From NCBI GenBank assembly GCA_017992055.1, contig JAGOPK010000005.1, forward strand, positions 248,001 through 312,000: a stretch of 64,000 bases of DNA, read 5' to 3'. Numbering within the stretch: the stretch's first letter is position 1; each line of letters opens with the position of its first letter. Positions 53,294 through 62,773 of the stretch are shown here, piece after piece. Below the pieces are notes generated by a model that saw only the letters and a list, made by a program, of their open reading frames with translations, was not told where the DNA came from and searched no databases. The position numbers and the translations under genes were made by a program. Source of the DNA: Burkholderiaceae bacterium (lineage in GTDB: Bacteria; Pseudomonadota; Gammaproteobacteria; Burkholderiales; Burkholderiaceae_C).

Positions 53294-55657
53294 CTACGCG
53301 ACGAAGCCCATGCGCTGCAGCAGCGCCTGCGTGGTGGCCAGCTGCTGGCGCAGGCGCTGGGCGGCGGCGGCGGACTGCTCGGCGCTCCAGCCGGGGCCGT
53401 CGGTCTCGATCTGGCGCGCCGCATCGCGCAGGCCACGCAGGCCCAGGCTGGCGGCGCTGCCCTTGATGGCATGGGCCAGGGCCTTGAGCTCGGCGCCGCG
53501 GCCCTGGTCCAGCGCCGCCAGCAGCGCCGCCTGGTTGCCGGACTCGTCGGCAAAGAAGCCGGCCAGCACCAGGCGGTAGCCGGCCATGCCGATGCCCACG
53601 CAGACCTCGCCGACCACGGCCATGTCCAGCTGCGCGGCCACGTCGGCGGCCTTGAAGCGGCGGCGCGGCGCGGCGGCGGATTCGGCGGTGGCGGTGGCGG
53701 GCACGGAGGTGGGGACAGGGCGGGGCAAGGCAGGCACCGGTTCGGGCACCGGCGGCGGCGGCAGCCGGGCCAGCATGGCCTGGATATCGTCAGGATCGAC
53801 CGGTTTGCTGAGGAAATCGTTCATGCCGGCGGCGATGGCGGTTTGGCGGGTTTCGGCAAAGGCGTCGGCGGTCAGCGCCACCACCGGCAGCTGGCCGGCC
53901 GGCGGCGGCAGGGCGCGCAGCCGGCGCGTGGTCTCCAGGCCGTCGAGCACCGGCATGTGCAGGTCCATCAGCACCAGGTCGGGCAACTGGCCGGGCGCGG
54001 CCTGCTGCACTGCGGCCAGCGCCTGGGCGCCGTCGTTGACCAGCTGCACCTGGTGGCCGAGCTGCTCCAGCAGCATGCCCATGAAGCGGCGGTTGACCGG
54101 GTGGTCGTCGGCCACCAGCAGGCGCAGCGGCCTCGGCGGGACCGTGGCCGGCGGCGGCGGGGCCGCAACGGCTGCGGCGGCGGCCGGGATCGCTGGCGCC
54201 GCAGCGACCGGCGGCGGCTCCGGACACACCGGCAGCACCAGGCGCAGCACGAACAGCGAGCCCTCGCCACGGCGGCTCTGCACCTCGATGTCGCCGCCCA
54301 TGCGCCGTGCCAGGTTGCGCGAGATCTCCAGCCCCAGGCCGGTGCCGCCATAGCGCCGCGAGCTGCTGGCATCGCCCTGGGTGAAGCGCTGGAACAGCCG
54401 CGACAGCAGGCGTTCGTCGATGCCGATGCCGGTGTCGCGCACCTCGAAGCGCAGCCGGCAGGCGCCGGTGGGCGCGGCCGGCAGGCCCGGGCCGTCGTCG
54501 CGGCGCAGCGTCAGCGTGACGCCGCCGCGCTCGGTGAACTTGACCGCGTTGGACATCAGGTTGAACAGGATCTGGCGCAGCCGCTGGCCATCGGCCACCA
54601 CGCCGGCCGGCAGGTCCTCGCCCAGGCTGACGCCCAGCGTCAGGCCCTTGTCCAGCGCGCCGGGCGCCATCAGCGCACGCACCTCGTCGACCAGGCGCGG
54701 CAGCGACAGCGGCCCGGCCACCATGTCCAGCCGGCCGGATTCGAGCTTGGAGATGTCCAGGATGTCGTTCAGCAGGGCCAGCAGATGCGTCGCCGATTCG
54801 CGCGCGGTGCGCAGCTGCTCGGCCTGGCGTGCGTCCAGCGGGCTGCGCTCCAGCAGCGACAGCATGCCCAGCATGCCGTTGAAGGGCGTGCGCAGCTCGT
54901 GGCTCATGTTGGCCAGGAAGGCGCTCTTGGCCTGGCTGGCGCCCTCGGCCTCCAGCCGCGCCTGGTGCAGGTGCTGGGCCAGGTCCTCGGCCTCCTGGCG
55001 GCGCCGTGTCAGGGCCTTGAACTGGCGCGCCGTCAGCACCGCGAAGGCCAGCGTCAGCAGGCTCTGGAACAGCGTCACGCCGATGCCCCAGCGGCTCTGG
55101 TCGCGCACCGCGTCGTTGCGGCGGGCGATCTGGTCGGCGACGATCTGGTTGGCCAGCAGGGTCAGGTCGTGGATGGGCTCCAGCATCTGCTCCAGCTCGG
55201 CGCCGATGGCCGCCAGGCGCTCGGTCGGGATGGCGCCACGCGCCTGCTCGGACAGCACCGGGTCGTGGCGCGCCAGGAACTCGCGCAGCGCCTGGATGGT
55301 GCGCTCGTGGCCGGCGCCGATGTCGACGATGTCGCGCGTGTGCGAGGGCTCGACCAGCGGCAGCCGGCTGGCGAACAGCTCGTAGCGGAAGCGCAGCGCC
55401 TCGCTGCGGTCGTGCTGCGGATGGCGCAGCGCGTCGCGCACGCCGTCGCGCAGCTGCATGTACTCGTTTTCCAGCTGGAAGAAGCTCCAGACCAGGTTGT
55501 CGCCCTCGTAGCGCACATGGCTGGACAGCAGGTTGATCTGCCGCCACTGGATCCAGGCCACGGCGGCAAAGGCGGCCATCAGGCCGGCGCCGATCAGCCA
55601 CAGCCAGGGCTGGCGCAGGCGCCAGCCGCGTGCCGCGCTGGCCGGGACCTGCCTCAC
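53294..55657 (-). CDS. Hybrid sensor histidine kinase of module 1 (with exported pterin-fold protein)
   Basis: A 787-residue kinase: TM1 (18-36), periplasmic helical domain (37-190, beginning INLLSSHVRYEGDNLVW), TM2 (191-211), HisKA with His253 ([14 protein letters not shown]), HATPase (DTGIGID, GGTGLGLEI), Ala/Pro linker, receiver with Asp565 (LVLMDLHMP), second linker and HPt with His729 (ALAHAIKGSAASLG). The GTG start at 55657 overlaps the stop of the pterin-fold gene (GTGA). Its sensor domain is clearly related to that of the kinase at 59952-62264. It probably hears the periplasmic partner; no output regulator is adjacent. Confidence 0.92.
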   Translation of the reverse strand: MRQVPASAARGWRLRQPWLWLIGAGLMAAFAAVAWIQWRQINLLSSHVRYEGDNLVWSFFQLENEYMQLRDGVRDALRHPQHDRSEALRFRYELFASRLPLVEPSHTRDIVDIGAGHERTIQALREFLARHDPVLSEQARGAIPTERLAAIGAELEQMLEPIHDLTLLANQIVADQIARRNDAVRDQSRWGIGVTLFQSLLTLAFAVLTARQFKALTRRRQEAEDLAQHLHQARLEAEGASQAKSAFLANMSHELRTPFNGMLGMLSLLERSPLDARQAEQLRTARESATHLLALLNDILDISKLESGRLDMVAGPLSLPRLVDEVRALMAPGALDKGLTLGVSLGEDLPAGVVADGQRLRQILFNLMSNAVKFTERGGVTLTLRRDDGPGLPAAPTGACRLRFEVRDTGIGIDERLLSRLFQRFTQGDASSSRRYGGTGLGLEISRNLARRMGGDIEVQSRRGEGSLFVLRLVLPVCPEPPPVAAAPAIPAAAAAVAAPPPPATVPPRPLRLLVADDHPVNRRFMGMLLEQLGHQVQLVNDGAQALAAVQQAAPGQLPDLVLMDLHMPVLDGLETTRRLRALPPPAGQLPVVALTADAFAETRQTAIAAGMNDFLSKPVDPDDIQAMLARLPPPPVPEPVPALPRPVPTSVPATATAESAAAPRRRFKAADVAAQLDMAVVGEVCVGIGMAGYRLVLAGFFADESGNQAALLAALDQGRGAELKALAHAIKGSAASLGLRGLRDAARQIETDGPGWSAEQSAAAAQRLRQQLATTQALLQRMGFVA

Positions 55658-56178
55658 TTCACCTCGAGCGTGCGCAGCTGCCAGGCCGAGCGGGCGTAGT
55701 AGCGCTCCTGGCGCAGCTCGGCGCTGTCGTCGAAGGGGTAGACGATGAACAGCGGCCCCTTCTCGCGCACCGTCATCGCCTGGCCGTCCAGGCGCGTGGC
55801 CAGCAGCATGCCGAACTGCTCGGCGTCGGCGGCCGGGATCTCGATCTTGTAGCTGTTCAGCGCGATCGCCTTCAGCACCGTGCCCTTGGCGCCGGCGGCG
55901 GCCAGCACCTCGCGCAGCAACGGGCCGCTGAACTGGCGCCGCTCCTTGAACCAGGGCGTGGCGGTGGTGAAGCGGTGCTGGGGCAGGGCCTCCAGCATGG
56001 CCATGTCGAAGTCGGCGCGGCGGCCGCCGTCGGCATTGCCGGCGCTGACCTGGCCGGTGATCGACAGCAGCACGCGGCCCTTGGGCCGGTCCAGTGCCAG
56101 CGCCGGCAGCGCCGGCAGGCCCAGCAGGGAAGCCAGGGCGGAACACAGCAGGCTGCGGCGGGAGCGGACGGAGGGCAT
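55654..56178 (-). CDS. Small exported pterin/molybdopterin-fold protein, PruR-like, module 1
   Basis: A 174-residue protein with a signal peptide carrying a Tat-like SRRSLL motif and ending near ALA at 28. The mature part is a minimal sulfite-oxidase (SUOX)-type fold: FDMAMLEALPQ, TTATPWFKERRQFSGPLLREVLAAAG, LNSYKIEIPAAD, GPLFIVYPFD and WQLRTLEV. The mature region contains no cysteine, so the Mo-coordinating Cys of true sulfite oxidases is missing. It resembles PruR of Agrobacterium, a periplasmic pterin-binding partner of the DcpA receptor. It is translationally coupled to the hybrid kinase downstream, and divergent from murB. Confidence 0.82.
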   Translation of the reverse strand: MPSVRSRRSLLCSALASLLGLPALPALALDRPKGRVLLSITGQVSAGNADGGRRADFDMAMLEALPQHRFTTATPWFKERRQFSGPLLREVLAAAGAKGTVLKAIALNSYKIEIPAADAEQFGMLLATRLDGQAMTVREKGPLFIVYPFDDSAELRQERYYARSAWQLRTLEVK

Positions 56179-62264: not shown

Positions 62265-62773
62265 GACACCTCGATGCTCTGCAGTTGCCAGGCGCAGCGG
62301 CTGTAGTAGACCGCGTTGCGCAGTTCCGGATGGGCGTGGAAGGGGTAGATGATGAACAGCGGCCCCTTGTCGCGCACGGCCATCGGCTTGCCGTCGAGCA
62401 GGCGCGCCAGCAGCACGTCGTAGCGGCGTGCGTCCTCGCTGGGGATGTCGACGAAGTAGTTGTTCAGCGCCTGGGCGCGCAGCAGCTGGCCCTGGGCGCC
62501 GGCGGCGGCCAGCACATCGCGCAGCAGCGGGCCGGTGAACTGCCGCGGCTGGCGGTACCAGGGCGTGGTGGTGCTGAACTGCTGCTGCGGCAGCCGCTCC
62601 AGCATGGCCATGTCGAAGGCCGCGGCCGCCGGCCGATTGGTGTGGCGCACGCCGCCGGTCACGGTCAGCAGCACCGGGCCGCTGGGTGGGTCCAGCGGCA
62701 TGGCCAGGGCGGGTGTGCTGCAACCCAGCAGCAGCGGCCAGCGGGCCAGACCCAGGAGTGAACGGCGATCCAT
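62261..62773 (-). CDS. Small exported pterin/molybdopterin-fold protein, PruR-like, module 2
   Basis: A 170-residue paralogue of the protein at 55654-56178, again with a Tat-like RRSLLG motif at the start (an LLGC18 could be an alternative lipobox). It repeats FDMAMLERLPQQQFSTTTPWYRQPRQFTGPLLRDVLAAAG, in pieces, then LNNYFVDIPSED, KGPLFIIYPFH and WQLQSIEV. One cysteine (Cys160) lies near the C-terminus, where the paralogue has Ser; the Mo-ligand cysteine region is not conserved. It is coupled to the downstream kinase by a GTGA overlap. Confidence 0.82.
   Translation of the reverse strand: MDRRSLLGLARWPLLLGCSTPALAMPLDPPSGPVLLTVTGGVRHTNRPAAAAFDMAMLERLPQQQFSTTTPWYRQPRQFTGPLLRDVLAAAGAQGQLLRAQALNNYFVDIPSEDARRYDVLLARLLDGKPMAVRDKGPLFIIYPFHAHPELRNAVYYSRCAWQLQSIEVS

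Follow-up and report, generated by a model that had tools for sequence, protein, structure and literature searches.

The PruR-DTB systems are a named class, reviewed in 2026 by Rucker, Augusta, Fuqua and Allen (PMC13259868). By the 2024 description told in the accessible part of that review, a gene for PruR lies directly upstream of a gene for a kinase with a DcpA-type periplasmic domain and a TorS-like cytoplasmic part, and several copies, up to four systems, can occur in one taxon. In the published Agrobacterium tumefaciens model, PruR takes up pterins released to or arriving in the periplasm (PMC13259868), and the output of its partner DcpA is of the GGDEF-EAL type. In two other systems, QseG-QseE and XylFII-LytS, a periplasmic partner protein acts on the four-helix-bundle sensor domain of a kinase. 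Here we describe two modules in a 64,000-nucleotide stretch (the window) of the genome of a Burkholderiaceae bacterium (GenBank assembly GCA_017992055.1, contig JAGOPK010000005.1, positions 248,001 to 312,000 of the forward strand), each consisting of a gene for a small exported protein, PruR1 or PruR2, followed by a gene for a hybrid histidine kinase, HK1 or HK2 (Table 1). Both are real, conserved PruR-DTB modules and belong to a known kind; the wiring of PruR to a membrane kinase is already in print in the text of the review accessible to us (PMC13259868) and is not new. The parts added here that are worth following are a clade of sensors that lack a motif tryptophan, the twin-arginine leaders of the PruR proteins, and three-gene units of PruR, kinase and HD-GYP regulator in relatives.

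The two modules share with PruR-DTB the gene order, the copy number above one and the type of kinase. The DcpA-type domain downstream of PruR is recovered by a sensor profile, which finds GGDEF-type partners as well (27 of 227 pairs by motif), and not through A. tumefaciens DcpA itself. The cytoplasmic parts are TorS/BaeS-like by a match below threshold, TorS being the top NCBIfam model for HK1 and HK2 at 378 and 374 bits against a cut-off of 676.5. The modules differ from the class, as described in the accessible text, in that HK2 lacks the tryptophan of the WX7E motif, PruR1 and PruR2 have twin-arginine leaders, and HK1 and HK2 carry receiver (REC) and histidine phosphotransfer (HPt) domains. 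PruR-DcpA of A. tumefaciens is similar in PruR fold, pocket residues, two-gene organization and type of periplasmic domain, but the output here is a kinase.

Both gene pairs are on the minus strand, where a first-pass annotation of the window had placed them (56178-53294 and 62773-59952), and the GTGA overlaps that it reported were confirmed by a check of the sequence and its open reading frames: PruR1 ends in GAGGTGAAGTGA and HK1 has its GTG start at 55657, and the PruR2 stop and the HK2 start overlap in the same four letters. The kinase layout that it proposed also held. HisKA, HATPase_c, Response_reg and Hpt are all matched by Pfam in both proteins, the phospho-site motifs are intact (MSHELRTP, VLMD(L/V)HMP and AHA(I/V)KG(S/A)), and hydropathy places two membrane segments around a periplasmic stretch of ~140-150 residues in each. 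A third hydrophobic segment in HK1 (residues 673-704), immediately N-terminal to HPt, is read as a linker. The mutual similarity noted at that time amounts to 56% identity over 171 positions for PruR1 and PruR2 and 32% for the periplasmic sensors, within kinases that are 40% identical overall (HisKA 70%, HATPase 55%, REC 52%, HPt 30%). The sensor taken alone matched no Pfam model at its cut-off, and its fold had no Foldseek match at E <=0.001.

By sequence, fold and pocket residues, PruR1 and PruR2 are PruR proteins of predicted pterin-binding type. Their nearest solved relative in a search of PDB sequences is A. tumefaciens PruR (7kos; E 7.3e-39 and 2.8e-36, respectively), and three further sequences of pterin-binding proteins are among their best solved relatives. 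The SUOX fold expected from the first reading was borne out for PruR1 by an AlphaFold2 model (mean predicted local distance difference test score, pLDDT, 96), which superimposes on PruR 7kou with a root-mean-square deviation of 1.0 Å and a template-modelling (TM) score of 0.95, as compared to ~0.6-0.7 for entries of the sulfite-oxidase family; this test by model concerns PruR1, and PruR2 is placed by sequence. The pterin-associated residues N102, Y104 and W160 of A. tumefaciens PruR (PMC13259868) have their counterparts in N108, Y110 and W166 of PruR1, all three of which are also kept in PruR2, and these N, Y and W positions are kept in 220, 216 and 227 of the 227 non-redundant pairs analysed below. 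Both proteins have the size expected of PruR (~170 aa) and an N-terminal export signal, the leaders being judged by eye and hydropathy. Beyond these, neither a PruR (third match E 0.06) nor a sensor of the PruR-partner type (third match E 0.01) was found in the genome. PruR2 has a cysteine, Cys160 (SRCAWQL), two positions N-terminal to the conserved pterin tryptophan; cysteine recurs at this position in loci L046, L073, L091 and L102, in pairs both with and without the sensor tryptophan considered below.

That the pair is conserved in relatives emerged from a wider search of 283 loci, made up of 100 places from the list of the PruR1 family sample, 60 from the class and phylum lists, the best 80 of 549 named loci, and automatic loci. 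A downstream sensor was counted if the profile search found it on the strand of PruR and no more than 3.5 kb away. The pairs of the window are part of the set, in which some contigs also occur twice, and removal of identical pairs left 227. A sensor follows PruR in 244 of the 283 loci. In score bands that were set after the scores had been seen, this is so for 207 of 210 loci with a PruR score >=150 bits (the others being L065, L115 and L263), 33 of 44 at 100-150 bits, 4 of 5 at 85.5-100 bits, and 0 of 24 weak homologues below 85.5 bits. Chance pairing is excluded because the pairing is so conserved among the strong PruR loci. The PruR and partner genes overlap in 115 of the 227 pairs, and no fusion of the two proteins is evident from the listed lengths of open frames, which were the only search made for them. 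By motif, the partners comprise 188 kinases, 27 GGDEF proteins and 12 unresolved cases, two of which (L060 and L082) are HK2-type kinases with the H-box SHAIRTP instead of SHELRTP. A PruR-linked sensor protein at L121:3481-4998 has a HATPase domain but gave no Pfam match for HisKA. As for the spread of these proteins, 104 of 250 sampled genomes in the window's family match PruR1 at E <=1e-8, the own genome and distant homologues included; a profile at stricter cut-offs finds 13 of 370 class genomes, 73 of 397 phylum genomes, and 86 of 159, 16 of 149, 116 of 151 and 26 of 148 genomes in four other families. Loci from these four samples brought the collection to 346 pairs in 379 loci.

In mean-field covariation over 328 pairs (effective number 262), the highest score between PruR and sensor was 1.49, which has rank 15 when column pairs of both kinds are taken together (45763 in all) and was reached by 0 of 40 within-cluster shuffles (maximum 1.39) and by 0 of 46 further ones, for which the mean of the top ten scores had a maximum of 0.98 as compared to the observed 1.10. 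With the 227 pairs the best score was 1.52 versus <=1.31 in 36 shuffles, at a different column pair. It appears from these alignments that PruR and sensor have evolved together; the covariation supports this and is not a map. A run at PruR 111-116 was considered as an interface and dropped, since it lies within the null.

Table 1. Features of the two PruR-kinase modules (positions in the window)
Feature	Position	Strand	Evidence
PruR1, exported SUOX-fold pterin-binding-type protein, 174 aa	55654..56178	-	7kos match, AlphaFold2 model, molybdenum-ligand Cys absent
PruR1 leader, ~29 residues, twin arginine at residues 7-8 (56160-56155)	56092..56178	-	eye and hydropathy
HK1, hybrid histidine kinase, 787 aa	53294..55657	-	Pfam, phospho-sites
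HK1 periplasmic sensor domain, ~residues 40-188, predicted four-helix bundle	55094..55540	-	
HK1 WX7E motif, intact, W57...E65	55463..55489	-	alignment
HK1 HisKA, phospho-His 253	54734..54931	-	Pfam and motif
HK1 HATPase_c	54233..54592	-	Pfam
HK1 receiver, phospho-Asp 565	53771..54118	-	Pfam and motif
HK1 HPt, phospho-His 729	53333..53554	-	Pfam and motif
PruR2, exported SUOX-fold pterin-binding-type protein, 170 aa	62261..62773	-	7kos match
PruR2 leader start MDRRSLLG, twin arginine at 62767-62762		-	sequence motif
HK2, hybrid histidine kinase, 770 aa	59952..62264	-	Pfam, phospho-sites
HK2 WX7E position, Leu54 replaces Trp, Glu62 kept	62079..62105	-	alignment
HK2 HisKA, phospho-His 249	61353..61550	-	Pfam and motif
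HK2 HATPase_c	60819..61211	-	Pfam
HK2 receiver, phospho-Asp 553	60420..60752	-	Pfam and motif
HK2 HPt, phospho-His 698	60036..60263	-	Pfam and motif

The two modules belong to different old clades. In a joined PruR-sensor tree HK1 and HK2 fall in two distinct clades, of 18 members (support 0.92) and 36 members (support 0.99), respectively, and a recent tandem duplication is rejected on this ground. Among the 158 pairs with >=1300 nt of sequence beyond the kinase, a convergent murB (its identity confirmed by Pfam) is found <=300 nt past the kinase in 48, yajQ follows in 51, and both are present in 47. Module 1 is located between murB and yajQ, the latter 48 nt downstream of HK1; yajQ stands directly after the kinase only in the window and in L037, from the same genus. 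Module 2 lies on the opposite side of murB with two genes in between, and in L044 and L046, also of the same genus, an HK2-type kinase adjoins murB. We infer that module 2 may be the older resident and module 1 an insertion. The two intervening genes, for a putative selenate/phosphonate-type (PhnD-type) binding protein (57350-58237; TIGR04553 above its cut-off) and a chemotaxis receptor (methyl-accepting chemotaxis protein, MCP; 58377-59948), are convergent to HK2. The yajQ gene (DUF520; 52745-53245) is on the same strand as HK1 and possibly co-transcribed with it; its product presumably binds cyclic-di-GMP.

Some relatives have a receiver gene that begins <=150 nt past the kinase gene and in the same direction (22 of the 185 pairs with >=600 nt beyond the kinase; other neighbours after the kinases encode receiver-LuxR or receiver-kinase proteins). 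A clade of 21 members (support 0.91), which includes Acidovorax, Chitinimonas and Pseudomonas among others, has a receiver after the kinase in 14 of the 20 members with enough sequence, and 13 of these 14 show an HD-GYP-type HD motif. Three-gene units in which PruR and kinase are followed within 150 nt by a receiver-HD-GYP protein are present in L051/L168, L072, L088, L101, L151, L154 and L158; further triads are those of L167, L175, L182, L184, L193, L216 and L300. These calls were made by Pfam for L072, L088 and L158, within the triad clade, and for L300, outside it, and by motif for the remainder. Such a unit is not mentioned in the accessible text of PMC13259868. Two of the strong loci without a downstream sensor have an HD protein as well. 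In L065 (3057-4751) a receiver-HD-GYP protein, Pfam-confirmed and outside the triad clade, comes directly after PruR with no sensor kinase between them, and in L115 (3043-6423) PruR is followed by a 966-aa protein with an HD domain of HD-GYP type and a dCache match below threshold, which makes it another type of sensor. The triads of relatives, together with L065 and L115, suggest turnover of cyclic-di-GMP as a possible end point of PruR kinase signalling. The best relative of these HD-GYP regulators in the own genome (57%) is a poor candidate for the output of HK1 or HK2, as it precedes a same-direction frame that contains a PAS domain and is, by eye, its likely partner.

Support for the earlier proposal of PruR-type partners wired to phosphorelay kinases comes from the sequences and the fold, from the pocket residues, and from overlapping genes that remain paired across relatives. 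Its other part, that extracytoplasmic pterins may be sensed through two parallel kinases, is one reading among others, given the leaders and the shared pocket residues considered below. In the explanation that we prefer, each PruR would fold, probably in the cytoplasm, bind a small pterin, most likely a tetrahydro- form, and leave through the twin-arginine translocation (Tat) system; ligand-bound PruR would dock in the periplasm on the four-helix-bundle sensor of its co-translated kinase and so may shift the balance of kinase and phosphatase activities. Inside the kinase, phosphoryl groups would then pass from His to Asp to the His of HPt, and from there to a response regulator probably encoded elsewhere, the final output being, by analogy, probably cyclic-di-GMP and attachment. 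We put the probability of this explanation as a whole at roughly 70%. Several observations weigh against it. No response regulator was found beside HK1 or HK2. The sensor of HK2 is without the W of WX7E, and its contact with PruR2 may differ given that loss. The 227- and 328-pair sets have different top covarying column pairs, as do the half-sets, and the signal is no more clustered along either chain than in the shuffles, so that no interface is mapped. Twin-arginine (RR) leaders are also present in 52 of 123 PruR pairs outside the HK1, HK2, triad and GGDEF-partner groups, and the unrelated PhnD-type exported protein of the window has one too (PRRRALL).

Proteins that leave through the Tat system are folded, and many of them carry a cofactor; leaders with RR are common in this order. 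By motif only, both PruRs have Tat-type leaders, which begin MPSVRSRRSLL in PruR1 and MDRRSLLG in PruR2. An RR is present in the leaders of 18 of 18 members of the HK1 clade and 36 of 36 of the HK2 clade (54 of 54 together; followed by any residue and then F, L, I, V or M in 39 of the 54), as compared to 5 of 23 members of the clade with HD-GYP triads and 4 of 27 pairs with GGDEF partners. Under a stricter rule of position the counts for HK1, HK2, triad, GGDEF and other pairs are 18/18, 34/36, 3/23, 3/27 and 50/123, the two HK2-clade misses being PruR2 itself, in which the RR is further up, and one leader without a core. A 77-member clade that holds both modules has RR in 73, versus 42 of 150 pairs outside it, and the RR state changes 30 times on the tree versus at least 63 in shuffles. 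The strongest competing explanation is that PruR is exported unfolded by Sec and binds its pterin in the periplasm, the RR being merely the basic n-region of GC-rich bacteria. It agrees with the published A. tumefaciens model, as the accessible text of PMC13259868 gives it, and we regard it as a real possibility at somewhat less than even odds. It would account for RR in those 52 of 123 other leaders (45 of 83 in loci of >=60% GC) and for the background in the kinases, where 182 of 1040 stretches of 32 residues taken at random contain RR; it does not readily account for the unbroken presence of RR in the two clades or for its distribution in loci of >=60% GC, namely 53 of 53 in the two clades versus 9 of 35 in triad and GGDEF pairs (Fisher p 5e-15, kinship ignored).

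The leaders of both clades thus suggest Tat export of a folded, possibly pre-loaded PruR. Whole-word searches for twin-arginine or Tat had zero hits in the accessible text of the review (PMC13259868), and a full-text literature search on pterin, twin-arginine and periplasmic sensor kinases matched only formaldehyde-sensor work. The pteridine reductase motif TGX3RXG (PMC13259868) is present, as TGGARRIG, in a PruA/FolM-like short-chain dehydrogenase/reductase of the genome (L421; 28% identity to E. coli FolM, E 4e-15; one of ten matches), which makes a source of reduced pterin plausible. Because of the RR leaders and this reductase, pterin loading within the cell before export is a serious alternative to loading outside, and since such leaders are of the type for ready-folded, cofactor-loaded proteins, what the kinases report may be pterins that were loaded within the cell. 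The further step, that in this branch of the Burkholderiales PruR is a shuttle which folds round reduced pterin in the cytoplasm, exits loaded through Tat and has its arriving amount read by the kinase, is tentative, and we hold it to be rather unlikely.

The WX7E motif is intact in HK1 and has lost its W in HK2. In the accessible text of PMC13259868 it is the conserved motif of PruR-partner sensors in "the vast majority", and because only a majority is claimed, it does not strictly define PruR-DTB. Among the 227 pairs the Glu is present in 206 and the Trp in 151; the Trp is found in 24 of 27 GGDEF partners (Phe or Tyr in the other three) versus 118 of 188 kinases, and Q61, S97 and R98 are kept in 201, 217 and 210 pairs. 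The Glu with Q61, S97 and R98 is on this alignment a more general signature of the sensor than the Trp. None of the 36 HK2-clade members has the Trp (L058, L081, L091 and L102 read V, I, V and V), and the HK1 clade has 17 W and one F. It could be that HK2 has drifted with the loss of Trp, such that PruR2 and HK2 work together with no need of a contact gated by pterin, or that PruR1 drives HK2 as well. Cross-talk is possible because the conserved pocket residues are the same in both PruRs, and the clade-wide absence of W fits such drift; the motif Glu, the pocket of PruR2 and the GTGA coupling are nevertheless intact, and the W state changes only 8 times on the tree versus at least 54 in 200 label shuffles, which argues for an old and stable W-less state rather than decay. 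We consider drift or cross-talk unlikely, if only slightly more so than the shuttle.

More improbable is that PruR is an accessory protein which acts on the kinase independently of pterin, in the manner of QseG with QseE; the partner proteins are unrelated here, as they are to XylFII of XylFII-LytS, and the resemblance of the sensors may be only that of a common fold. Finally, the SUOX fold and a marginal match to Pfam PF00174 (20.4 bits for PruR1 and 24.5 for PruR2, cut-off 24) would be in keeping with molybdopterin-dependent oxidoreductases that have the kinases as unrelated neighbours. This reading is barely credible and was dropped, since alignment finds no molybdenum-ligand Cys in PruR1 or PruR2 at the position where L001 and L002, the two strong PF00174 proteins from this genome that could be aligned, have one, and the size of PruR, a fold near-identical to it, the overlapping genes and the 207 of 210 paired loci all stand against it.

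The accessible text of PMC13259868 names PruR-DTB kinases but gives no tested example of them, no regulator and no account of how PruR meets its pterin in these systems. The locus described here presents two natural variants in one cell, a sensor with the W and one without it, and the export route of the PruRs bears on whether the signal is a pterin of the inside or of the outside. If the shuttle is true, both modules would read the cell's own pterin state, and with it folate or redox, and not the pterins outside. Through the receiver-HD-GYP proteins that follow the kinase in relatives, PruR kinases would be linked to cyclic-di-GMP, a link that PruR-DcpA already has.

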